A stretch of 43,503 bases of DNA from Candidatus Thioglobus perditus (lineage in GTDB: Bacteria > Pseudomonadota > Gammaproteobacteria > PS1 > Pseudothioglobaceae). A program made the translations under genes and the position numbers. The notes beneath the pieces were generated by a model. That model saw only the letters and a program-made list of their open reading frames with translations, ran no database searches and was not told the DNA's origin. Each line of letters starts with the position of its first letter. Position 1 is the stretch's first letter. Shown here piece by piece: positions 3,510 through 35,105 of the stretch. The stretch is taken from positions 1 to 43,503 of the forward strand of contig PNQY01000032.1 of the NCBI GenBank assembly GCA_002909145.1, given 5' to 3'.

Positions 3510-5428
3510 TTGTAATTCCTTACAGTAGGTTTAATAAATTCGAAATGTAATTGCTCTTTGTGTAGTTCTGGCTGTTCTTCGTTATACTGCCAAGCAGCCA
3601 CGAAAGAAAAGTTATCGTCATCTCTCTTAGCCTCACCACCTTCTGCCAAATGCTCAACTCTGGCATGCGCCCCACAAGACTCTTCACGCATTAACGCATC
3701 TTGACACATTAACTTTCCAAGCTCAATAAAGTCAGCCACTCGACCTGCACGCTCTAACGTCTGATTTAAATCCTTATCATCCCCAGTCACCTTAATGTTG
3801 TTCCAGAATTTAGCTTCTAGAGTTTCAATTTCTTTAATCGCTCGTTCCAGCGTGCCGGACTCACGAGACATACCGCAAGCTTCCCATAAAATACCACCCA
3901 ATTTCTGGTGAAAATATTCAGGCGAATGTTTAGGGTCTGGTGCATGCATTAATTGTTCAATACGCGCTTTAACCGAATCCAAACTTTTTTCAACCTCAGG
4001 ATGGTCTTCTTCGACCTTGTCAAATGAGTTTCTTGCCAAATAATTTGCTACAGTTTGTGGCAAAACAAAATAGCCATCAGCCAAACCTTGCATAAGCGCC
4101 GATGCACCTAATCGATTAGCGCCATGGTCAGAAAAATTGGCCTCACCACCTGCAAACAAACCTTCGACTGTAGTCATTAAGTTATAGTCAACCCACAGTC
4201 CACCCATTGTATAGTGTGGAGCAGGATAAATTTTCATTGGAGTCTTGTAAGGATCTTCGCCTGTAATGCTTTCATACATCTCAAACAAGTTTCCATATTT
4301 TTCTGCAACTGCATCTAAACCTAATTTGTTAATAATATCTGTAAAGTCCAAATACACACCTAGCCTTTGTCCGTGCACCTTACTACCAACACCGTAACCT
4401 TCATCGCAAATATGTTTTACTGCACGTGATGCTACATCTCTAGGCACTAAATTGGCAAATGCTGGGTACATTCTCTCTAAAAAATAATCTCTATCTTCTT
4501 CAGCTATATCGATCGGATTTTTTTCACAATCCTCAACATTCTTAGGTGCCCAAATGCGGCCGTCATTACGCAAAGACTCGCTCATTAATGTCAACTTAGA
4601 TTGATTTTCGCCTGTTGGTGGTACACAAGTCGGGTGGATTTGAGTAAAACTTGGATTGGCAAAAAAAGCGCCTTTCTTATAAGCGCGCCAAGTAGCAGAA
4701 GTATTACAGCCCTTTGCGTTAGTAGACAAGTAAAAGGCGTTACTGTAACCGCCTGTACACAGAACTATACAATCCGCCACATGCGCTGAAATTTCCCCAC
4801 TCACTAAATCTCTAACTACTACACCACGAGCCCTTCCTTCAACCATAATCAGTTCAAGCATTTCCGATCTTGAATGGTGAGTCACGCTGCCTTCTTCAAT
4901 TTGTCGGCTATGTGCCTGGTAAGCCCCTAATAATAACTGCTGCCCTGTTTGTCCTCTAGCATAAAAAGTACGTGACACTTGCGTACCGCCAAATGATCGA
5001 TTAGCTAAGTAACCACTATATTCACGTGCAAATGGCACGCCTTGCGCTACCGCCTGATCAATAATATTAGAGCTTAGCTCTGCCAAACGATAGACATTAG
5101 ATTCTCTTGCTCTAAAGTCACCGCCCTTAATGGTGTCATAAAACAAACGCCAGGTACTATCCCCATCGTTTTTATAATTCTTGTTAGCATTTATTCCGCC
5201 TTGCGCTGCAATAGAGTGCGCCCTACGAGGACTGTCCTGAAAACAAAAAGAACTAACCTTGTATCCGGCCTCACCTAACGTAGCACATAGAGATGCTCCG
5301 GCTAAGCCTGTACCAATAACAATTACTTTATGCTTTTTTCGATTTTGTGGTGCGATTAACGCTAAATCAAATAGATGTTTCTTCCATTTATCCTCTAGCG
5401 GGCCTATTGGTTCAAAAGATTCAAGCAT
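3506..5428 (-). CDS. sdhA: Succinate dehydrogenase / fumarate reductase flavoprotein subunit
   Basis: This FAD subunit interconverts succinate and fumarate at the inner membrane. It has the FAD-binding start [10 protein letters not shown] near residue 40, and the covalent-flavin histidine region [14 protein letters not shown]. The substrate motif IHPTCVPP, the DGRIWAP segment and a C-terminal [17 protein letters not shown] are also present. The 640-residue length and insertions resemble the Bacillus/Bacteroidetes-type B-class enzyme. I chose the ATG that overlaps sdhC by 8 bases; an in-frame GTG nine bases upstream (ending at 5437) is an alternative. The gene lies between sdhC and sdhB with overlaps at both ends. 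Confidence 0.95.
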
Positions 5429-6906: not shown

Positions 6907-8652
6907 ATGTTTAATTTAATCACCAAATACAAATACTATTCAATATTAATTATTGGACTATTGTTATTTAGTATGTGGATGCACGCCAATATTGTTAATA
7001 TACATACAAGAGATTTACAAGCACAGTCAATTGAACGAATTCAGCTTTATAAAAGCTCGCTTAATAATGAGTTAACTCGTTTTAATTTTCTACCTTTTGT
7101 TATAGCTAGAGACAAACAATTAATTGACTGGTCTTTTAAACAATCAAAAAAAGCAAACATAGCACTGGAAGGCATTAAAAAAGAATCTGGAGCAAATACA
7201 TTATATGTAATGAACGCTTATGGAGATACATTGTCATCAAGCAATTGGAAAGACAAGTCTAGCTTTATTAATAAAAACTTTTCATTTAGACCTTATTTTA
7301 AGAAGGCAATGAAAGGGGGTGACGGTCAGTTTTTTGGCATTGGAACAACCTCTAAGAAGCCAGGTTTTTATATTTCAACTGGTATAAAAGATCAAAATAA
7401 AATAATAGGCGTTACCGTAGCAAAAGTTGATTTAAGTATTTTGGAAAATATATGGTCCGATGCAGGAGAAAAGATATTTGTTACTAACAAAGATGGTGTT
7501 GTTATTTTAAGCTCAATGAAACAATGGAAATACCATACTATAGGCTCAATAAACGAATTACAACTTAAAGATATTAAGACTCAAAAGCAATTTTCAGACA
7601 AAACCTTAAAGCCACTTTCTAACAATTTAAAATTCGAAAAAGACTGGTTAAATATCAATGAATCCTCTTACCTACATCAAAAGGAATTTATAAACAATAC
7701 AGACTGGACAATACACTACCTAACTCCTAACAGCCAGATAAAACAAATGGTAGCTGCAACATGGGCAAAGATAGGATTGATTATATTAATACTATCAATC
7801 ATTGCATTATTATCATGGCTGTCTAGGTCGCATGAAAAATTAAAAATATCTATTAAAGAGTCTACCGAGCTTAAAAGATTAAATAATTTACTAAAAATTG
7901 AAATAGATCACAGGCACAAGGTTGAAAGTGAGCTACTGGCTGTACAAAAAAATATTGAAAGAACCAGTAGATTGACGGCGATGGGTCAATTGTCAGCCTC
8001 TATAATTCATGAATTAGGCCAACCCTTATCTGCAATGAAGGCCTATATAGAAGGAGCACAACTACCTCCTAGAGAAAATACAACCCTTGCAAAACAAGAA
8101 CAAACAGTATTGCCAAAACTTGATGCTTTGGTAGAAAGAATGAGTAATATTTCTCAACAATTAAAATTTTTCTCACACAATGACAAAGAAGATGTCATGG
8201 AAATAGATATAAGAGACGCCCTACAAGGTGTATTAATTATTATCTCTCCAGCATTAAAGCAAGACAATATAGAGTTAATACTTAAATTTAAAGATCAGCC
8301 TTATATTGTGAAGGGCAACCAAATCAGACTTGAACAGGTCTTTGTTAACATAATCAACAATGCTAGAGATGCGGTACAAAAATCAACACCAAAAAGAATT
8401 ACAGTACAAATAGATATAAAAAATAAAGAAGAGGTTATTATTAGAATAATAGATACAGGTACTGGAATTTCTCAGGAAACAATGCAAATGCTTTTTGACC
8501 CCTTCTATACTACAAAACCCTCAGGTGTTGGGCTGGGGCTGGGGTTGACCATCTCATCCAATATTGTCCATACATTTGGTGGAACGCTCACAGCAGTTAA
8601 CAATAAAGATGCCGGATCAACCTTTACAATAACAATGCCACTTGTATTATGA
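6907..8652 (+). CDS. dctB: DctB-like sensor histidine kinase for C4-dicarboxylates
   Basis: It is a membrane sensor kinase expected to detect C4-dicarboxylates in the periplasm and phosphorylate the partner regulator. The 581-residue protein has an N-terminal membrane helix near residues 10-25 and a periplasmic double-Cache (PDC) domain. That domain carries the DctB signature segments YVMNAYGDTLSSSNW, FRPYFKKAM and FFGIGTTSKKPGFYIS. A second helix lies around residues 285-305. The phosphoacceptor is His368 in IIHELGQPLSAMKAY. The ATPase domain has N-box NIINNARDAV, G1 DTGTGIS and G2 GLGLGLTIS. It overlaps the regulator gene by 4 bases. Ligand identity is inferred from the TRAP genes downstream. 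Confidence 0.9.
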   Translation: MFNLITKYKYYSILIIGLLLFSMWMHANIVNIHTRDLQAQSIERIQLYKSSLNNELTRFNFLPFVIARDKQLIDWSFKQSKKANIALEGIKKESGANTLYVMNAYGDTLSSSNWKDKSSFINKNFSFRPYFKKAMKGGDGQFFGIGTTSKKPGFYISTGIKDQNKIIGVTVAKVDLSILENIWSDAGEKIFVTNKDGVVILSSMKQWKYHTIGSINELQLKDIKTQKQFSDKTLKPLSNNLKFEKDWLNINESSYLHQKEFINNTDWTIHYLTPNSQIKQMVAATWAKIGLIILILSIIALLSWLSRSHEKLKISIKESTELKRLNNLLKIEIDHRHKVESELLAVQKNIERTSRLTAMGQLSASIIHELGQPLSAMKAYIEGAQLPPRENTTLAKQEQTVLPKLDALVERMSNISQQLKFFSHNDKEDVMEIDIRDALQGVLIIISPALKQDNIELILKFKDQPYIVKGNQIRLEQVFVNIINNARDAVQKSTPKRITVQIDIKNKEEVIIRIIDTGTGISQETMQMLFDPFYTTKPSGVGLGLGLTISSNIVHTFGGTLTAVNNKDAGSTFTITMPLVL

Positions 8653-9956
8653 ACAATAAAGATCAGCCTTTGATTATTATTGTTGATGACGACCAAGCAA
8701 TGCGTGAGTCTTTGTCAGATTATTTTTATCGCGCTAACTTTGTTGTAAATACATATAGCAACGGAGATGAATTTTTAAAAGACATTCAAAATCACCAACC
8801 TGATGTCATTATTTGTGATTTAAAAATGCCTAATATGGATGGTATGGAGGTTCTTAAATCTCTAAAAAATAACAAAAACAATGTGCCATTTATTATGATG
8901 ACAGCACATGGAAACATCCCTAAAGCGGTAGAGGCAATTCAAAATGATGCTTACGATTTTATTGAAAAACCATTTAGCCCAAAAAAACTACAAAAAATGG
9001 CAAACCAAGCCGTTGATAAATACAGAAAAAAATCTAACAAGAAGGACTTGTTGACCCTTCCCTTGGGAAAAAGTGATTCAATAAAAGAATTTCATGATGA
9101 ACTACTAGAGCAGTCAAAAAGTCAAGAAAACCTTTTGCTGATAGGAGAAAAAGGAGTAAACAAACTATTAATAGCAAAAACTATACATCACCATAGCAAT
9201 CAAAGAAAGGCACCATTCGTACATATTAATTGCAGCAAGATGTTAGATTACAATTTCAAAAAGATATTTGTAGATATTGACAATGTGTTTTTTAGTACAA
9301 ATAATGGCTTTCTTTTCTTAGAAAACCTAGACGAGATGCCGATTGAAAACAGAACAAAATTACTTACTGCATTGAAAAGTAAAATAACCAACCTGTCTCC
9401 CAAAAATAATATTTTTAGAATCATATGTTCAATAAAGGAACTCCCACCCAAAGAAAAAAAAGGCACAAATATAGGAAAGATTTGTGCATTAATAGACAAG
9501 AATACACTATATATTCCTGCCTTACGAGAGCACAAAGACGATGTATTTGAATTATTCAATTCATACATAGCACAAGCTGCAAATTTTTATCAAACTTCGG
9601 TGCCTTTATTGCCAGAACAAGACGTTGTAACTTTATCAACATTTGATTGGCCTGGAAATCAGAACCAATTAAAACAAATTGCAGAATTATTTGTTTTGCT
9701 AAATAGAACCGTAAAGACTTCAATTTCACATCTTCTCAAGGTGTCACCTAAAGATGTTACAAATATTGATAATAAATCTAACGAAAACCTGCGCACCTTA
9801 ATGCATAATTTTGAATGTCAGTTTATTACTCAAGCTATGATCGAATGCAAAGGCAACATAACTCAGGTGTGTGATTTGCTAAAAATTCCTAGAAGAACTC
9901 TCAACGAGAAACTAATAAAACACAATATCAAAAGATCTTCCTTCTTACAAGATTAG
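8649..9956 (+). CDS. dctD: DctD-like response regulator with degenerate AAA+ domain
   Basis: This 435-residue regulator has an intact receiver (acidic pair D13/D14, phosphoacceptor D57 in CDLKMP, T in MMTAHG, K in EKPFSP). It also has an NtrC-type central domain and a C-terminal Fis-type helix-turn-helix (residues about 388-430, GNITQVCDLLKIPRRTLNEK). The central domain is decayed. The P-loop reads GEKGVNKL instead of GESGTGKE. The GAFTGA loop that contacts sigma54 is absent, with the segment deleted. The second acidic motif reads FLFLENLDEMP instead of TLFLDEIGEMP. So it probably cannot hydrolyse ATP or activate sigma54, and may act as a simple DNA-binding activator or repressor at sigma70 promoters. 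No -24/-12 promoter is visible before dctP, which agrees. Confidence 0.9.
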   Translation: MNNKDQPLIIIVDDDQAMRESLSDYFYRANFVVNTYSNGDEFLKDIQNHQPDVIICDLKMPNMDGMEVLKSLKNNKNNVPFIMMTAHGNIPKAVEAIQNDAYDFIEKPFSPKKLQKMANQAVDKYRKKSNKKDLLTLPLGKSDSIKEFHDELLEQSKSQENLLLIGEKGVNKLLIAKTIHHHSNQRKAPFVHINCSKMLDYNFKKIFVDIDNVFFSTNNGFLFLENLDEMPIENRTKLLTALKSKITNLSPKNNIFRIICSIKELPPKEKKGTNIGKICALIDKNTLYIPALREHKDDVFELFNSYIAQAANFYQTSVPLLPEQDVVTLSTFDWPGNQNQLKQIAELFVLLNRTVKTSISHLLKVSPKDVTNIDNKSNENLRTLMHNFECQFITQAMIECKGNITQVCDLLKIPRRTLNEKLIKHNIKRSSFLQD

Positions 9957-24301: not shown

Positions 24302-25236
24302 CCCCTAAAGAAATGACTTTTGTTCAACACTTAGTTGAACTGCGTGATAAATTATTGCACTCTGTTATAGCAATTCTTGTGATATTTATTGCTATATTTC
24401 CATTCGCAAATGAAGTCTATGGGTTTATTGCCGCGCCAATTATGAGCGTACTTCCTGTAGACACAAATATTATCGCAATTGGAGTGATATCACCATTTTT
24501 AACCCCATTAAAAATGGCATTAATATTTGCTGTATACATATCAATGCCATATCTACTTTATCAGATTTGGTCTTTTGTTGCTCCAGCACTGTATAAGCAT
24601 GAGAGGCAAATGGTATTGCCGCTAGTAGTTTCTTCAACTATATTGTTTTATGCAGGACTAATATTTTCATTCTATATAGTATTTCCAGTTATTTTTGGAT
24701 TCTTATCTAATATTGGACCAAGTATTGTAGACTTTACTCCAGATATTCAATACTATCTTGATTTTGTTTTAAAAGTATCATTTGCTTTTGGTGTAGCATT
24801 CGAAGTTCCAATTGCCACTATATTACTAATAATGTTTGGTGTCACTACGGTTGAAAAACTTAAAAAGAATCGCCCTTATGTAGTTATTGGTGCATTTGTT
24901 CTGGGTATGCTGCTTACACCGCCAGATATCATCTCACAGACACTAATTGCTATACCAATGTGGCTTTTATTTGAGGCAGGACTTATATTTGCACCTATGT
25001 TTAAGAGCAGAGAGGATGCTCCACAAAAGCCAAACAATAACAACCCTAAAGATCCCGATCCAACTCCTAGTAATGATTCAAATGATGAGAGTGTAGATGC
25101 AGATGATTGGAGTGATGATGAATTCGATACCGAAATGGATAAAATCGATGAAGACTTTCAAAAGATGGATGATGAATTTGCCGAATATCTAAAAAAACTA
25201 GACGATGAAGATCCTAAGAATAAACCTAAAAGCTAG
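24298..25236 (+). CDS. tatC: Twin-arginine translocase subunit TatC with acidic C-terminal tail
   Basis: TatC recognises twin-arginine signal peptides. The first 240 residues show the six-helix TatC core with FVQHLVELRDKLLHS, the FEVPIATILL helix and VIGAFVLGMLLTPPDIISQ. After FAPMFKSRE comes an extra tail of roughly 65 residues rich in Asp, Glu, Asn and Pro (for example SNDESVDADDWSDDEFD). Ordinary TatC ends soon after the last helix (258 residues in E. coli against 312 here). The end overlaps the convergent ANTAR gene by 4 bases. Confidence 0.94.
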   Translation: MTPKEMTFVQHLVELRDKLLHSVIAILVIFIAIFPFANEVYGFIAAPIMSVLPVDTNIIAIGVISPFLTPLKMALIFAVYISMPYLLYQIWSFVAPALYKHERQMVLPLVVSSTILFYAGLIFSFYIVFPVIFGFLSNIGPSIVDFTPDIQYYLDFVLKVSFAFGVAFEVPIATILLIMFGVTTVEKLKKNRPYVVIGAFVLGMLLTPPDIISQTLIAIPMWLLFEAGLIFAPMFKSREDAPQKPNNNNPKDPDPTPSNDSNDESVDADDWSDDEFDTEMDKIDEDFQKMDDEFAEYLKKLDDEDPKNKPKS

Positions 25237-25817
25237 TCTAATAACTCAAAGGCATTGATAACACTCTCAGCAACATCTACGATACGCTTGTTTTTATCCA
25301 TAGCCATCTTCCTAAGAGATTGATAAGCATCATCTTCATTAATGTCTTTATGCTTCATTAGCAAGCCTTTAGCTTTTTCAACAGCCTTGCGTTCTGAAAG
25401 TTGATTGCGAGTTGCATCTAACTCATCTTTAAGTGCCTGAAACTCTCTAAATCTAGCCATAGCCACGTCAATAATAGGCTGCACTCTATTCTCTTCAAGA
25501 CCATCAACAATATAAGCGTTAACCCCTGATTTAATTGCTGAAGATGCCATTTCAGAGTTTGACTCTTCAGTAAACATAACAATTGGTTTAGGTTTAGTCT
25601 TGTTAACATCGGTAAGATTAGCAAAAACCTCTTCATCTGGAATGTCTGCATTAACAATAACAACATCGGCATGAGTCATTTCATTGCTATCTTGTAAATG
25701 AGAACTATTACTCATACGACATATTACTTCATGACCTTGATCTTGTAGAGCTCTACGCAAAATAGCGGAACGCCCAGTATTCTCATCAACCAAAATTATT
25801 TTTAATGCTATATTCAT
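25233..25817 (-). CDS. nasT: NasT-type ANTAR antitermination regulator
   Basis: ANTAR proteins bind paired hairpins in nascent mRNA and prevent termination. The 194-residue protein has an N-terminal receiver-like domain and a C-terminal ANTAR domain (about residues 135-190, LSERKAVEKAKGLLMKHKDI then DAYQSLRKMAMDKNKR). NasT hallmarks are clear in PIVMFTEESNSEMASSAI, AYIVDGL and VQPIIDVAMARF. At the phosphoacceptor position the strand reads VIVNADIP, with Asn where receivers carry Asp, so phosphorylation there is impossible. NasT proteins are usually controlled by a NasS partner rather than phosphorylation; no NasS is in the window. It follows the CBS gene on the same strand. Both glnK-amtB leaders nearby carry ANTAR-type hairpins, its likely targets. 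Confidence 0.9.
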   Translation of the reverse strand: MNIALKIILVDENTGRSAILRRALQDQGHEVICRMSNSSHLQDSNEMTHADVVIVNADIPDEEVFANLTDVNKTKPKPIVMFTEESNSEMASSAIKSGVNAYIVDGLEENRVQPIIDVAMARFREFQALKDELDATRNQLSERKAVEKAKGLLMKHKDINEDDAYQSLRKMAMDKNKRIVDVAESVINAFELLD

Positions 25818-25851: not shown

Positions 25852-26295
25852 TTATCCACTCATACATGATTTAAAGATAGCTCTATGCACATCGCCAATA
25901 CTTACAATACCAACTAGTTTGTTTTTGTGAGTAACTGGGATTCTTCTAAATTTTCTAAGCCACATAGTGCTTGCTGCTTTTAAACAAGGCATATTTAGAT
26001 CAATACTAGCAACACTTTTGGTCATAATATCGCCAATTTTAACTTCCATTGTAGTTTTGTAATTGTGCTCCATATTTTCAAAATCAAAATGAGTATCGCT
26101 CATTATCTCATCAAGCTCTGGGAACATATGTTGCAAAATATCCTTCTCGGAAATAATGCCTACCAAGTTATTATCGTCATCTACCACAGGCGCTCCACTA
26201 ATATGATCCATTACCATTAATATAGCAACATCTTTAACTAAGTCATTTGGGCCAACTGTTTTTACAGTGGTTGACATAATATCTTCAACTCTCAT
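25852..26295 (-). CDS. CBS-pair domain protein
   Basis: The 147-residue protein consists of two CBS motifs, at about residues 1-57 (starting MRVEDIMSTTVKTVGPNDLV and containing GAPVVDDDNNLVGIISEKDIL) and about residues 85-147 (containing RRIPVTHKNKLVGIVSIGDV). CBS pairs bind adenosine nucleotides and act as energy or ligand sensors. There is no attached enzyme domain. It lies 34 bases upstream of the NasT-type gene and is probably co-transcribed, which hints at a link between adenylate status and nitrogen control. The link is inference. Confidence 0.88.
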   Translation of the reverse strand: MRVEDIMSTTVKTVGPNDLVKDVAILMVMDHISGAPVVDDDNNLVGIISEKDILQHMFPELDEIMSDTHFDFENMEHNYKTTMEVKIGDIMTKSVASIDLNMPCLKAASTMWLRKFRRIPVTHKNKLVGIVSIGDVHRAIFKSCMSG

Positions 26296-26443: not shown

Positions 26444-27715
26444 TTATTTAATACTAAATTCAGGATAGGCTTCTAATCCACACTCTGCAATATCCACACC
26501 AGAATCCTCCTCCTCTTCTGATACTCTTATACCCATTAGTGCCTTGAGGGCTAACCATAACACCAATGAAGCTGTAAATACAAATACAAAGATAGTTCCA
26601 GCACCAACCAATTGTCCGGCAAATGTTGTGCCTGAATTTGTAAGTGGCACTGCTATTAAACCCCAAAATCCAACAACGCCGTGTACTGAAATAGCACCTA
26701 CAGGGTCATCAATCTTAAAGATACGATCAAGCATTACAATTGAGAACACAACAATTAGGCCGCCAACTACACCGATCATAGTCGCCTCCAATGCTGTTGG
26801 TGTTGATGGCTCTGCAGTAATTGCAACCAATCCTGCTAATGCACCATTAAGTGCCATAGTTAAATCAGCCTTGCCAAACCAAACTTTAGCTAAAAGTAGT
26901 GCAGCAATAACACCACCGGCAGCAGCAGCATTAGTATTCAAGAACACCATTGCTACAGAGTTAGCACTAGCAATATCACCTAGCTTTAATACTGAACCGC
27001 CATTAAAACCAAACCAGCCCATCCATAAAATAAATGTACCTAAGGCTGCTAGTGGCATATTAGCACCAGGTATTGCTTTAGAGTTACCATCAGCATCATA
27101 CTTGCCTTTACGGGCACCAAGTACCAACACACCAGCTAAAGCCGCCGCAGCGCCAGCCATATGTACAATACCAGATCCAGCAAAATCAGAGAATCCAAAA
27201 TCATCTCCTAAAGAAAACAAGCCAAACACGCTTTCTCCGCCCCAAGTCCAAGCACCTTCTAAAGGATAAATAACAGTAGTAAAAACTGCAGCAAATATAA
27301 AGAAAGTAAATAACTTCATACGCTCAGCAACTGCGCCAGAAACAATACTCATTGCTGTTGCTACAAACACAACCTGAAAGAAAAAATCGCTAGCAGCTGA
27401 ATAAACACTATCACCGCCAAAACCATTTTCTGCACTGGCTTTTAGAGCATCTACAACAAGTGTTTCGCCACCAGCAATACCTGCTAGAAATGCGCCACCG
27501 CCATACATAACTTCATATCCAATTACTAAGTATCCAGTACAAGCAATTGCAAATAAGCCAACATTCTTAGTAAGAATTTCAGCTGTATTTTTACTTCTAA
27601 CCAGTCCAGCCTCTAACATTGAAAAGCCTGCTGCCATCCACATAACTAAGGCACCCATTACTAAAAAGTAAAAAGTGTCCATTGCATATTGTAATTCAAA
27701 AATTTGATTTTCCAT
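26444..27715 (-). CDS. amtB: Ammonium transporter, first copy
   Basis: Amt proteins conduct ammonium across the inner membrane as trimers. The 423-residue protein has 11 expected helices. The twin pore histidines appear in IVHMAGAAAALAG and ISVHGVVGFWGL, and the family signature DFAGSGIVHMAG precedes the first. No cleavable signal peptide is evident; it starts MENQIFELQYAMDTF. The cytoplasmic tail contains GIRVSEEEEDSGVD, the GlnK-contact region. It lies 9 bases after glnK, so the pair is one operon under the ANTAR-type leader at 28183-28305. It differs clearly from the second AmtB. Confidence 0.95.
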   Translation of the reverse strand: MENQIFELQYAMDTFYFLVMGALVMWMAAGFSMLEAGLVRSKNTAEILTKNVGLFAIACTGYLVIGYEVMYGGGAFLAGIAGGETLVVDALKASAENGFGGDSVYSAASDFFFQVVFVATAMSIVSGAVAERMKLFTFFIFAAVFTTVIYPLEGAWTWGGESVFGLFSLGDDFGFSDFAGSGIVHMAGAAAALAGVLVLGARKGKYDADGNSKAIPGANMPLAALGTFILWMGWFGFNGGSVLKLGDIASANSVAMVFLNTNAAAAGGVIAALLLAKVWFGKADLTMALNGALAGLVAITAEPSTPTALEATMIGVVGGLIVVFSIVMLDRIFKIDDPVGAISVHGVVGFWGLIAVPLTNSGTTFAGQLVGAGTIFVFVFTASLVLWLALKALMGIRVSEEEEDSGVDIAECGLEAYPEFSIK

Positions 27716-27724
27716 TTTTCCTCC

Positions 27725-28072
27725 CTATAAAGCTATTGATCCAGTCTCACCCGTACGGATGCGAACTACCTGTTCTAAAGATGATACAAATATCTTGCCA
27801 TCACCAATTTGACCATCATCATCTGATTTAGCGTTAGTAATAATTACCTCAAGTGCGCTATCGACTTGATCAGCTCTAATAGCTATCTCTAGTTTAACTT
27901 TTGGTAAAAAATCGACCTTGTATTCAGCCCCTCGGTAAAGCTCCGTGTGTCCTTTTTGGCGTCCAAAACCTTTTACTTCGGTTGCAGTTATTCCTGTAAC
28001 ACCCACATTTGAGAGTGCCTCTCTAACATCATCAAGCTTAAATGGCTTAATAATTGCTGTTATCATCTTCAT
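27725..28072 (-). CDS. glnK: PII nitrogen regulator, first copy
   Basis: PII proteins sense 2-oxoglutarate and ATP/ADP and plug AmtB. The 115-residue protein has the T-loop with uridylylation site Tyr51 ([12 protein letters not shown]), the B-loop [12 protein letters not shown] and the C-terminal [14 protein letters not shown] short insert (SDDDGQ) precedes the B-loop relative to the second copy. The ribosome site AAGGA lies about 10 bases from the ATG. Transcription must pass two intrinsic terminators in the leader to reach this gene. Confidence 0.95.
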
Positions 28073-28095: not shown

Positions 28096-28145
28096 AAAAA
28101 AGCCAGTAGCTGTAAGTGCAATATATGCAAATACAACTACTGGCT
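28096..28145 (-). terminator. Second (glnK-proximal) intrinsic terminator in the glnK leader
   Basis: On the minus strand AGCCAGTAG and CTACTGGCT pair, extended inward by TTGTA/TACAG and TGCA pairs to a stem of about 18 pairs with two mismatches, followed by TTTTTGTTTT. It sits about 24 bases upstream of the glnK start codon, so it would block glnK-amtB expression unless bypassed. Confidence 0.75.
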
Positions 28146-28182
28146 CTACTTAACCCGTGTGCAGCTCCACCTTGAAACTGGC

Positions 28183-28231
28183 AAAAAAAAACGTCTATTT
28201 AAACCCTTTAAAAAAGATCTAAATAAACGTC
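28183..28231 (-). terminator. First (ANTAR-linked) intrinsic terminator in the glnK leader
   Basis: On the minus strand GACGTTTATTTA pairs with TAAATAGACGTT over 12 positions (two G-U). The stem continues inward through GATCTTT/AAGGGTT to a four-base loop and is followed by a run of T residues. Its 5' arm overlaps hairpin P2, so the two structures exclude each other. Confidence 0.8.
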
Positions 28232-28241
28232 AATGTTTTTT
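28222..28241 (-). promoter_or_regulatory. ANTAR-type hairpin P2 of the glnK leader
   Basis: On the minus strand a stem closed by C-G with AAAC/GTTT carries the six-base loop ATTGAC (A at position 1, G at position 4). Further A-T pairs follow after one mismatch. The loop and 3' arm are part of the 5' arm of the first terminator. Confidence 0.65.
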
Positions 28242-28242
28242 G

Positions 28243-28268
28243 TTGATTTCCCACCTTTGGGAATTAAC
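28243..28268 (-). promoter_or_regulatory. ANTAR-type hairpin P1 of the glnK leader
   Basis: On the minus strand TTCCC and GGGAA close the six-base loop AAAGGT (A at position 1, G at position 4). The stem extends outward as GTTAA/ATCAAC with a bulge and a mismatch. It is directly adjacent to P2, as in known ANTAR targets. A 6-bp stem with a four-base AAGG loop is the alternative fold. Confidence 0.65.
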
Positions 28269-28276
28269 TGTTAACC

Positions 28277-28305
28277 ATTATAACTAATTAAATAAAATTA
28301 ATCAA
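28277..28305 (-). promoter_or_regulatory. Sigma70 promoter of glnK-amtB (first copy)
   Basis: On the minus strand TTGATT is followed by exactly 17 bases and TATAAT. Transcription would start just before hairpin P1 and give a leader of about 195 bases. Confidence 0.8.
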
Positions 28306-28328: not shown

Positions 28329-29264
28329 TTATTTGTACCTTTCATCAAAATTATCAAGAAAATCATCTATTGATAAATAATGACTACCATCGCATGAAAA
28401 GCTTAATCCTACTGTGCCATTCATAATATTCAAACTCCCGGTTTTTAAATACAACTGATCATCACTAAAGCGCATATAGTGAAACTTTTCAAACACTTCT
28501 TTGACCTGATCTTGTGTTACCTTGGCTTTTTCAGGGTAGGATCTTTTTGGATATAAAAGAAATATATTTGGACTGGTTATTTCTTCAAGTACATGCACGC
28601 GATAATTATAAGGATCATCATAGGCCCATATTGTTGCTCTGGATGATGAATAGTGTAGCTTTAAATGAAATATTCCAAGTTTGCATAATAATTCAGTGGC
28701 AATATTATGCACTGTATAAGCCTCTTTATCCATTGCAGACTCAGCCCTAGTCTGATTGAATAAATTAGATCTAACCTCTGGGTCCCCTTTGATTTGACGC
28801 CAATCATCCAGATTAAAATTTTGCTTCGGCAGTGGTAGACTCTCTAAATCAAGATCGAATACCAACATACCAATAATTTCATTGTCATGATAAAGAGCGT
28901 GCACTACACTAATGCATGGTCTTAATGTAGCACCAGAGATATAGGCATCAGACATATAAATTGGGTGTTCGCCATCAATTGCACTAATGAAAGATCGGTC
29001 TGATAGATTTTGACCTTGAAAATCATTATCTACTTTTGTTTTTGTTATGTTGCCACTTATTTGAATACCATAACGATCCAATGCATAAACCATATTAATA
29101 TGATTATGATTTTGCATATATTCAAACAAAAGATCATTTAATAAATCCAGGCTAGCCTCATTGTCTAAACAGTTATCACAAGCTTGTGATAATTGCATTA
29201 ATCCCTCGCCTAGCTGGTCAGTCAAAAAATCTTTTTGCTCAACAATTAAATCTGAAATTTGCAT
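28329..29264 (-). CDS. PDC/Cache-type sensor-domain protein, function unknown
   Basis: The 311-residue protein has no membrane segment or signal peptide. Its middle (about residues 55-155) resembles a PDC/Cache ligand-binding domain, with VYALDRYGIQISGNI, LSDRSFISAIDGEHPIYMSD, YISGATLRPCISVVHALY and IIGMLVFDLDL. The rest (about 190-311) has no motif I recognise. It lacks kinase, cyclase or HTH domains, so it senses without an evident output. It lies between ligA and the glnK promoter, on the same strand as both, 38 bases after ligA. A role in nitrogen control is only positional inference. Confidence 0.75.
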   Translation of the reverse strand: MQISDLIVEQKDFLTDQLGEGLMQLSQACDNCLDNEASLDLLNDLLFEYMQNHNHINMVYALDRYGIQISGNITKTKVDNDFQGQNLSDRSFISAIDGEHPIYMSDAYISGATLRPCISVVHALYHDNEIIGMLVFDLDLESLPLPKQNFNLDDWRQIKGDPEVRSNLFNQTRAESAMDKEAYTVHNIATELLCKLGIFHLKLHYSSSRATIWAYDDPYNYRVHVLEEITSPNIFLLYPKRSYPEKAKVTQDQVKEVFEKFHYMRFSDDQLYLKTGSLNIMNGTVGLSFSCDGSHYLSIDDFLDNFDERYK

Positions 29265-33355: not shown

Positions 33356-34630
33356 TTATAGGTCATACCCAGTTTCTTCATGTGAAATAATATCCAGACC
33401 CTGCTGCTCTTCCTCTTCATTTACTCTTAGACCGGTAATCATATCTACCACTTTAAGAATGATATAAGTTGCCACTGCAGTATAAACAACAGTTGCTATA
33501 ACACCGGTAAACTGAATTTGCAGTTGATCAGCAATAACAATTGCCTCACGATCCCAACCACCTTGTCCAGAGAAAATACCCAGCTCTTTGGATGCAAAGA
33601 TACCAGCCATTAATGTGCCAATAATACCGCCCACACCATGCACAGGAAATACATCTAATGAATCATCAATCTTGAATTTTTGCTTAATAATGATTACTGC
33701 ATTAAAACAAACAATACTGGCAATAAAACCAATCACTAAAGCACCAGCAGGACCAACAAAACCAGAAGCCGGTGTAATTGTACCAAGTCCTGCAACCATT
33801 CCGGTTACTGTACCTAGTGCAGTAGGCTTGCCAAATTTAATCCACTCATAAAACATCCAAGTAATTGCACCTGTAGACGCCGCAATATGTGTGGATAAAA
33901 TAGCCATAGCCGCATCACCACCTGCTGCAAGTGCAGATCCACCATTAAATCCGAACCAGCCAACCCAAAGCATAGCTGCACCAGTAATGGTCATTGTCAT
34001 ATTATGTGGAGGCATAGGTTTTTTTGGGAATCCTCGTCTTGGGCCTAATACAATAGCCGCAACCAATGCTGCAATACCTGCAGTAATATGAACAACAGTA
34101 CCGCCAGCATAATCAAGAACATTACCTAACCATCCGCCGCCCCACACCCAATGGGTAATTGGTGCGTAGACCACTAATAGCCAAATACTACTAAATAATA
34201 GCACCGCTGAAAACCTCATTCTTTCAGCATAGCCACCAATTATTAGAGCTGGAGTAATAATGGCAAATGTCATTTGAAACATTGCAAATAGAGATTCTGG
34301 AATAGATCCATTTACAGTGTCCATACTAACTTGAGCCAGAAGCACATTAGAAAAATCTCCAAAGTAAGGATTGTCACCTGAGAAGGCAATAGAATAACCA
34401 ACAATAAACCACAAAATGCTCATAATTCCAGCAATTGCAAAGCATTGCATTAACACTGAGAGTATATTTTTAGTGCGAACTAGGCCGCCATAAAATAGTG
34501 CCAATCCAGGAAGAGTCATAAACAACACCAAAGCAGTTGATGTCATAATCCATGCAGTGTCTGCACCATTAACAACTTCTTCGGCAAACACAGACATTGG
34601 CATTAAAGCCAATAATAATAATAATTTCAT
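33356..34630 (-). CDS. amtB: Ammonium transporter, second copy
   Basis: The 424-residue protein starts with a cleavable signal peptide (MKLLLLLALMPMSVFA, cut near residue 16), as in classical AmtB. The mature N-terminus is ADTAWIMTSTALVLFMT. The family signature is DYAGGTVVHITAGIAAL, with the first pore histidine, and the second histidine is in FPVHGVGGIIGTL. The C-tail GLRVNEEEEQQGLDIISHEE is the GlnK-contact region. It follows glnK by 10 bases. Compared with the first copy it is the more canonical gammaproteobacterial AmtB, so the two may differ in affinity or expression. Confidence 0.96.
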   Translation of the reverse strand: MKLLLLLALMPMSVFAEEVVNGADTAWIMTSTALVLFMTLPGLALFYGGLVRTKNILSVLMQCFAIAGIMSILWFIVGYSIAFSGDNPYFGDFSNVLLAQVSMDTVNGSIPESLFAMFQMTFAIITPALIIGGYAERMRFSAVLLFSSIWLLVVYAPITHWVWGGGWLGNVLDYAGGTVVHITAGIAALVAAIVLGPRRGFPKKPMPPHNMTMTITGAAMLWVGWFGFNGGSALAAGGDAAMAILSTHIAASTGAITWMFYEWIKFGKPTALGTVTGMVAGLGTITPASGFVGPAGALVIGFIASIVCFNAVIIIKQKFKIDDSLDVFPVHGVGGIIGTLMAGIFASKELGIFSGQGGWDREAIVIADQLQIQFTGVIATVVYTAVATYIILKVVDMITGLRVNEEEEQQGLDIISHEETGYDL

Positions 34631-34640
34631 TTTTTACCCC

Positions 34641-34979
34641 TTAAAGTGCGTCTTTATCTGTTTCGCCAGTGCGAATACGTACAACTTTATCTAAATTGGA
34701 TACAAATATCTTGCCATCTCCAACCTTGCCAGAATTAGCAACATTTTTAATAGCCTCAATAACCTCATCAAGTTTTGATGCAGGAATTGCAATTTCTAAT
34801 TTAATTTTTGGTAAAAAATCAACCTGATACTCTGCCCCACGATACAACTCAGTGTGGCCTTTTTGACGACCAAAACCTTTAACTTCAGTCACTGTGATTC
34901 CAGAAACGCCAACTTCAGATAGTGCCTCCCTGACATCATCTAATTTGTGTGGCCTTAGAATTGCCGTTACAAATTTCAT
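34641..34979 (-). CDS. glnK: PII nitrogen regulator, second copy
   Basis: This 112-residue PII protein has the canonical length, the T-loop Tyr51 ([12 protein letters not shown]), the B-loop [12 protein letters not shown] and the C-terminal [13 protein letters not shown]. It is closely related to the first copy but lacks its three-residue insert before the B-loop. AGGAGAG precedes the ATG by about 5 bases. The leader upstream has a second ANTAR-type hairpin pair. Confidence 0.95.
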   Translation of the reverse strand: MKFVTAILRPHKLDDVREALSEVGVSGITVTEVKGFGRQKGHTELYRGAEYQVDFLPKIKLEIAIPASKLDEVIEAIKNVANSGKVGDGKIFVSNLDKVVRIRTGETDKDAL

Positions 34980-35019: not shown

Positions 35020-35051
35020 ATAGAAATAAAACCCTTCGTGGGCAACTTGTA

Positions 35052-35096
35052 AAGCAACAATGCTTGGTTTTTTTAACTCTACGTCGTTGTAGGGTT
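35052..35096 (-). promoter_or_regulatory. ANTAR-type double hairpin in the second glnK leader
   Basis: P1 (35075-35096) pairs AACCCTAC with GTAGAGTT (one mismatch) around loop AACGAC. P2 (35052-35065) pairs AAGC with GCTT around loop ATTGTT. Both six-base loops carry A at position 1 and G at position 4. A terminator is less clear here: CCC ACGAA GGG (35028-35038) is followed by TTTTATTT. Confidence 0.62.
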
Positions 35097-35105
35097 AATG
35101 CTGAC

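Follow-up and report, generated by a model that had tools for sequence, protein, structure and literature searches.

How is ammonium uptake governed in a bacterium with no detectable sigma-54? Sigma-54 is the sigma factor that serves nitrogen control of ammonium-uptake genes in other Proteobacteria. The question is raised by a glnK-amtB operon of Candidatus Thioglobus perditus, encoded on a 43,503-nt contig (PNQY01000032.1; the whole stretch analysed, hereafter the window). SUP05-type bacteria are marine sulfur oxidisers, abundant in oxygen-minimum zones and as symbionts of mussels and clams. RpoN (PF04552), which NtrC/sigma-54 control of glnK-amtB calls for, was not found in the window genome, and it scored over the cut-off in 12 of 83 Thioglobaceae genomes. 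NtrC gave nothing over the cut-off in the window genome either. At 8649-9956 (+) the window encodes a DctD-like response regulator whose domains include one for interaction with sigma-54; a sensor kinase gene and TRAP transporter genes adjoin it. The Walker A region of this regulator (GEKGVNKL) looks degenerate, in a genome where no sigma-54 is detectable.

An initial annotation, made from the letters of the window, had proposed that the operon is preceded by an ANTAR antitermination leader. As listed in Table 1, the minus strand does carry the promoter and the two hexaloop hairpins that it named, and both loops have A at position 1 (A1) and G at position 4 (G4). The -35 element TTGATT (28305-28300) and the -10 element TATAAT (28282-28277) give 10 of 12 matches. 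The window holds 13 promoter-like matches compared with 8.8 expected, and such matches alone mean little. The TATAAT occupies an identical position in all 17 aligned first leaders.

Table 1. Coordinates of the leader elements and associated genes in the window.
Feature	Position	Strand	Basis or remark
Promoter, sigma-70-type, TTGATT-N17-TATAAT	28277..28305	-	-10 position kept in relatives
Element A hairpin P1, TTCCC-AAAGGT-GGGAA, loop 28258-28253	28248..28263	-	Fold, motif scan, covariation
Element A hairpin P2, AAAC-ATTGAC-GTTT, loop 28234-28229, candidate antiterminator	28225..28238	-	Motif scan, prefix folding, pairing in relatives
Element A terminator T1 and T run	28183..28231	-	Fold; compensatory changes in relatives
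Element B hairpin P3, CAGTTTC AAGGT GGAGCTG	28162..28180	-	5-nt loop in the window
Element B P4-like hairpin, GGTT AAGTAG AGCC	28142..28155	-	Comparison with relatives
Element B terminator T2 and T run, overlapping P4 3' arm	28096..28145	-	Fold; seen in relatives
glnK (P-II protein)	27725..28072	-	PF00543
amtB, marine-type ammonium transporter	26444..27715	-	TIGR03644
CBS-domain protein, between amtB and the ANTAR gene	25852..26295	-	Domain match
NasT-like ANTAR protein (pseudo-receiver and ANTAR), proposed trans-acting factor	25233..25817	-	PF03861, E=1e-18
Element C, dual hexaloop leader (AACGAC, ATTGTT) of second glnK-amtB operon	35023..35105	-	Model R2; relatives
Second glnK-amtB operon (glnK 34979-34641, amtB 34630-33356)	33356..34979	-	ORFs, domains

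The core stem of P1 is lengthened by outer GUU/AAC pairs. A 9-nt linker (28247-28239) separates it from the P2 stem, which lies inside the range of 5-12 nt between hairpins given for eut leaders in the text of PMC3369931. P2 overlaps a terminator followed by a T run, as the initial annotation had read it. The T1 stem (28231-28190) has 19 pairs and a loop of 4 nt, and the T run ends at 28183. The 5' arm of T1 begins with G4 of the P2 loop, taking in loop positions 4-6 and the whole P2 3' arm, so P2 and T1 are mutually exclusive.

Folding, which had been put forward as a check, gave -25.8 kcal/mol for the RNA of 28183-28269 (-), with z = -4.7 and none of 200 shuffles as low. The whole 203-nt leader reached z = -8.1 against shuffles, and the plus strand showed nothing special when folded (z = -1.66). 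Growing prefixes formed P1 and P2 at 50-70 nt, then P1 and the terminator from about 80 nt. P2 by itself is marginally stable (-0.6 kcal/mol). We also scanned both strands of the window for the composite motif, that is, P1 and P2 with A1/G4 hexaloops plus an overlapping terminator. This leader was the only match, and 40 first-order Markov randomisations of the window gave none.

A covariance model, R1, was built from 16 element A leaders of glnK, 15 from relatives and one from the window. R1 found matches in 72 of 83 Thioglobaceae genomes, among them 48 of the best 49; the window leader scored 96.6 bits (E=3.8e-17). SUP05, Ruthia and Thiodubiliella relatives carry the same leader, and they are the basis for placing the window genome as Thioglobaceae-like. 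The initial annotation had staked its reading beforehand on conservation of the two loops, and they are conserved. In alignment A3, in which the 93 strongest leaders were aligned to R1 and counts lean to the fitted P1 and terminator, with P2 outside the model, G4 was present in 93 P1 loops and 92 P2 loops. A1 was kept in 85 and 90 of these loops, respectively, and A2 of P1 in all 93. Positions 3, 5 and 6 were variable in both.

The stems also covary against both controls, another check that had been suggested. P1/P2 pairs were kept in 91.4% of cells compared with at most 52% when slid, and both-sided changes occurred in 4 of the 5 core pairs of P1. T1 showed compensatory changes in 16 of 20 pairs, and both-sided cells numbered 296 compared with 83 when shuffled. 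P2 was paired in 97.5% of cells in 92 distinct leaders, and its changes were mostly one-sided; it covaries little because its 3' arm doubles as a terminator arm.

Among the relatives, one subclade (L269, L270 and L275; G047, G061 and G063) has G at loop position 1 in P1 and P2 together, with G4 kept. In a relative with a small genome of 1.2 Mb, the leader persists upstream of an amtB that is broken by stop codons (L277; G019:C1:307411-308823).

Downstream of T1 lies a second set of elements, P3, P4 and T2 (element B). In many relatives P3 has an A1/G4 hexaloop, AAAGAG or similar (e.g. AGTTTC AAAGAG GGAACT). P4 of relatives, e.g. GGT ATAGAA GCC, also has an A1/G4 hexaloop, and T2 starts with the 3' arm of this hairpin. 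In eight leaders (L245, L201, L255, L235, L190, L247, L176 and L165; E 8.7e-7 to 1e-3), R1, which draws on element A alone, picked up element B immediately after A; the nirB leader of the window genome is one of them. Element B is therefore a homologous copy of element A. Because this second attenuator sits between T1 and glnK, the leader spans about 28271 to 28073. The ANTAR antitermination of glnK-amtB that had been proposed is thus supported at the sequence level, but it was drawn too small: there are two attenuators in series, and the regulon is larger.

The canonical P4 loop was counted in 47 of 48 glnK leaders, 24 of 27 nirB leaders and 3 of 3 narK leaders. The window is the sole exception among the 48 glnK leaders, since its P4 loop, AAGTAG, does not have G4. 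T2 of the window is strong despite this non-canonical P4. Either element B is decaying here, or T2 is leaky, or the protein tolerates the variant, or the assembly contains an error. In a Ruthia leader (L106, near 3530-3560), P3 is the exact reverse complement of the P3 of L011, as if inverted.

Might the T1-T2 stretch of the glnK leader hold a metabolite riboswitch instead, for example a variant of the glutamine riboswitch? It is a conserved stretch that precedes a terminator upstream of nitrogen genes, and it bears what we take to be a loose resemblance to glutamine-riboswitch sequence. However, at the Rfam gathering threshold only tRNAs were found in the window, and relaxing the limit to E = 10 gave matches in the leader that were no better than chance. 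Moreover, the element A model recognises the stretch, and the core conserved within it, GGYA-N2-G-N2-GCY, forms an A1/G4 hexaloop that overlaps T2. A riboswitch is hardly credible on this evidence. We dropped the glutamine-riboswitch-like candidate, as relatives show a second ANTAR element in its place.

The same leader is found before other genes. A second strong R1 match in the window genome (G000:C16:62953-63040, E = 3.5e-11) leads a gene for the large subunit of nitrite reductase (nirB), whose product has NIR_SIR and pyridine-nucleotide reductase domains; a formate/nitrite transporter gene comes next. This leader has A and B in tandem with canonical loops. The second glnK-amtB operon of the window is preceded by element C, which includes a short terminator-like hairpin and is kept in 10 relatives, where the P1 stems differ in sequence yet pair. 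A model of element C, R2, recovered its own copy at E=1.1e-12 and matched 22 genomes, including that of the window, at E<1e-6. Elsewhere in the family, narK, serC, a putative fructose-bisphosphate aldolase gene and outer-membrane-protein-like genes stand behind the same leader, as named from their translated starts.

In one genus, leaders with element A only precede serC (L200, L208, L241, L263, L268, L271 and L272) and a fructose-bisphosphate-aldolase-like gene (fba; L228 and L246), which suggests a regulon reaching carbon and serine metabolism. An element A leader also precedes a small conserved protein (MVRMLVTINISKGWKTW...) with no Pfam match (L253, L266 and L267). P4 is absent from the serC, fba and small-protein leaders.

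We searched 229 genomes of the class Gammaproteobacteria with R1 at E <= 0.01; three of these genomes are from Thioglobaceae. Matches outside the family came from five genomes, with gene names taken from our reading of the translations. Three matches lie before putative nitrate-transport genes, each a single attenuator with two A1/G4 hexaloops, and one lies before a nitrite-reductase-like gene. The fifth (L313) does not have the dual hexaloop and is probably due to chance. R1 was built from glnK leaders only, and it recovers nitrate-assimilation leaders, the targets expected of NasT.

These distributions bear on a simpler account, in which the leader is a plain intrinsic-terminator attenuator or tunes readthrough, the hexaloops arose by chance and no ANTAR protein takes part. 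Two strong terminators do stand between the promoter and glnK, and the weakness of P2 alone is as that account would have it. It does not explain why loop positions 1 and 4 are kept in the 93 leaders while others vary, why the P1 stem covaries, or why randomised windows are free of the motif. Nor does it explain why the motif recurs before nirB, narK and serC, and before nitrate-transport-like genes in other families. We consider it very improbable. On the RNA anatomy, its conservation and covariation, the leaders shared among operons and the co-occurrence with a single ANTAR protein described below, the leader is very probably a NasT-type ANTAR transcription attenuator, two in series, that also governs nirB.

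The window genome (1.59 Mb in 190 contigs) encodes exactly one ANTAR protein. Such a protein is present in 68 of the 83 family genomes and in 47 of the best 49. Its gene follows close behind amtB in about 15 genomes that have both on a single contig; in two genomes (G002 and G010) the two genes are not linked. In EutV, residues R142, K143, K147, K149, E160, Y164, R168, M172 and R177 contact the hexaloop (PMC8934654), and the window protein keeps all of the aligned residues. The positions of EutV N173 and R175 are D and N in the window protein, as in NasR. Apart from ANTAR, the only domain is receiver-like (PF00072).

This receiver-like domain and the full-length alignment with EutV would fit control by phosphorylation, with a histidine kinase activating the ANTAR protein as for EutV. 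However, the phospho-acceptor site, EutV D54, is Asn in every aligned family protein that covers it, the window protein included, and such control is most improbable. A classical NasS-NasT pair, in which nitrate frees NasT from the NasS sensor, fits the architecture and the nitrate/nitrite-assimilation targets, and we rate it as unlikely. Against it stands the distribution of NMT1_2 (PF13379), which we take to be the family holding NasS: it was not found in the window genome, it scored over the cut-off in only 4 of the 83 family genomes, and no gene of this type lies beside nasT in the window. The description of the protein as NasT-type in the initial annotation thus holds for architecture and targets, but the NasS partner and the phospho-acceptor Asp are both missing. 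Neither phosphorylation of the receiver nor a NasS of PF13379 is likely to provide the input.

The gene directly upstream of the leader (28329-29264, -) encodes a soluble protein that matches dCache weakly. A B-type ANTAR element stands before the dCache-domain gene itself in some relatives (L161, L164, L177 and L182, near 385-499), which makes this gene seem a target and not an obligate sensor. As a replacement for NasS it was rejected, with strong homologues in about 17 of the 83 family genomes.

For the serial ANTAR attenuator we propose the following course of events. RNA polymerase would start near 28271, and P1 and then P2 would fold first. With nothing bound, the far more stable T1 would displace P2 and transcription would terminate. 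When active, presumably in response to nitrogen supply, the NasT-like protein would bind the P1 and P2 hexaloops through A1 and G4 and hold P2, so that T1 is blocked; the step from binding to readthrough is modelled on EutV and NasR. The polymerase would next meet the homologous P3-P4-T2 and need a second pass before glnK-amtB could be transcribed. By default, then, transcription would stop at T1 and T2, and the active protein would keep P2 and also P4. Acting on the same kind of tandem leader, this protein would control nirB too, and narK in relatives; its control would very likely extend to the second glnK-amtB operon, with element C as the target. A wider proposal is possible, and we hold it tentatively. 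In a lineage mostly without sigma-54, a NasT-like protein without NasS or phospho-acceptor may have taken over general nitrogen control, gating ammonium uptake and nitrite/nitrate assimilation by serial attenuators. Its signal would come from elsewhere, for example from the P-II protein GlnK encoded nearby or from a metabolite that the pseudo-receiver binds.

Parts of this picture have precedents. Ramesh et al. (2012) predicted that genes for P-II, ammonium transporters, nitrate/nitrite transporters and nitrite reductases have ANTAR RNAs upstream, and described 13 attenuators in six transcription units of Desulfotomaculum acetoxidans (PMC3369931). An ANTAR leader on glnK-amtB is therefore not new in kind. 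The main text of that paper names neither Ruthia nor Vesicomyosocius and does not state that two attenuators share one leader (PMC3369931). Our searches of the open-licence literature found nothing that joins ANTAR and Thioglobus, and few papers that join ANTAR, glnK and amtB, none of which concerns such a leader by title or abstract. As far as this literature was searched, three things appear to be new: a tandem pair that recurs across the family, a control that ammonium and nitrite/nitrate genes share in a lineage mostly devoid of sigma-54, and a NasT that is NasS-less and cannot be phosphorylated. The ammonium and nitrate/nitrite uptake genes of SUP05-type bacteria, most of whose genomes are without sigma-54, would thus have one RNA switch in common. 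As a simple model, the tandem attenuators may show how terminators in a row sharpen a protein-dependent switch, and the NasT-like protein raises the question of what ANTAR proteins can sense.

Compared with known systems, the window shares with EutV and the eut leaders of Enterococcus faecalis, as described in the text of two studies, a receiver-ANTAR protein, matching RNA-contact residues and a dual hexaloop (PMC3369931, PMC8934654). It differs from EutV in the Asn at the phospho-Asp position and in its target genes. AmiR, which acts on the amiE leader of Pseudomonas, is likewise an ANTAR antiterminator with a non-phosphorylatable pseudo-receiver (PMC8934654). In contrast to AmiR, no adjacent AmiC-type partner gene was seen in the window, and the regulon is multi-operon. 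NasR on the nasF leader of Klebsiella and NasT on the nas leaders of Proteobacteria likewise combine dual A1/G4 hexaloops, an overlap of P2 with the terminator and nitrogen-assimilation targets. Unlike these, the window system has neither NasS nor the NIT sensor domain, places its attenuators in series, and has glnK-amtB as a target besides nirB and narK.
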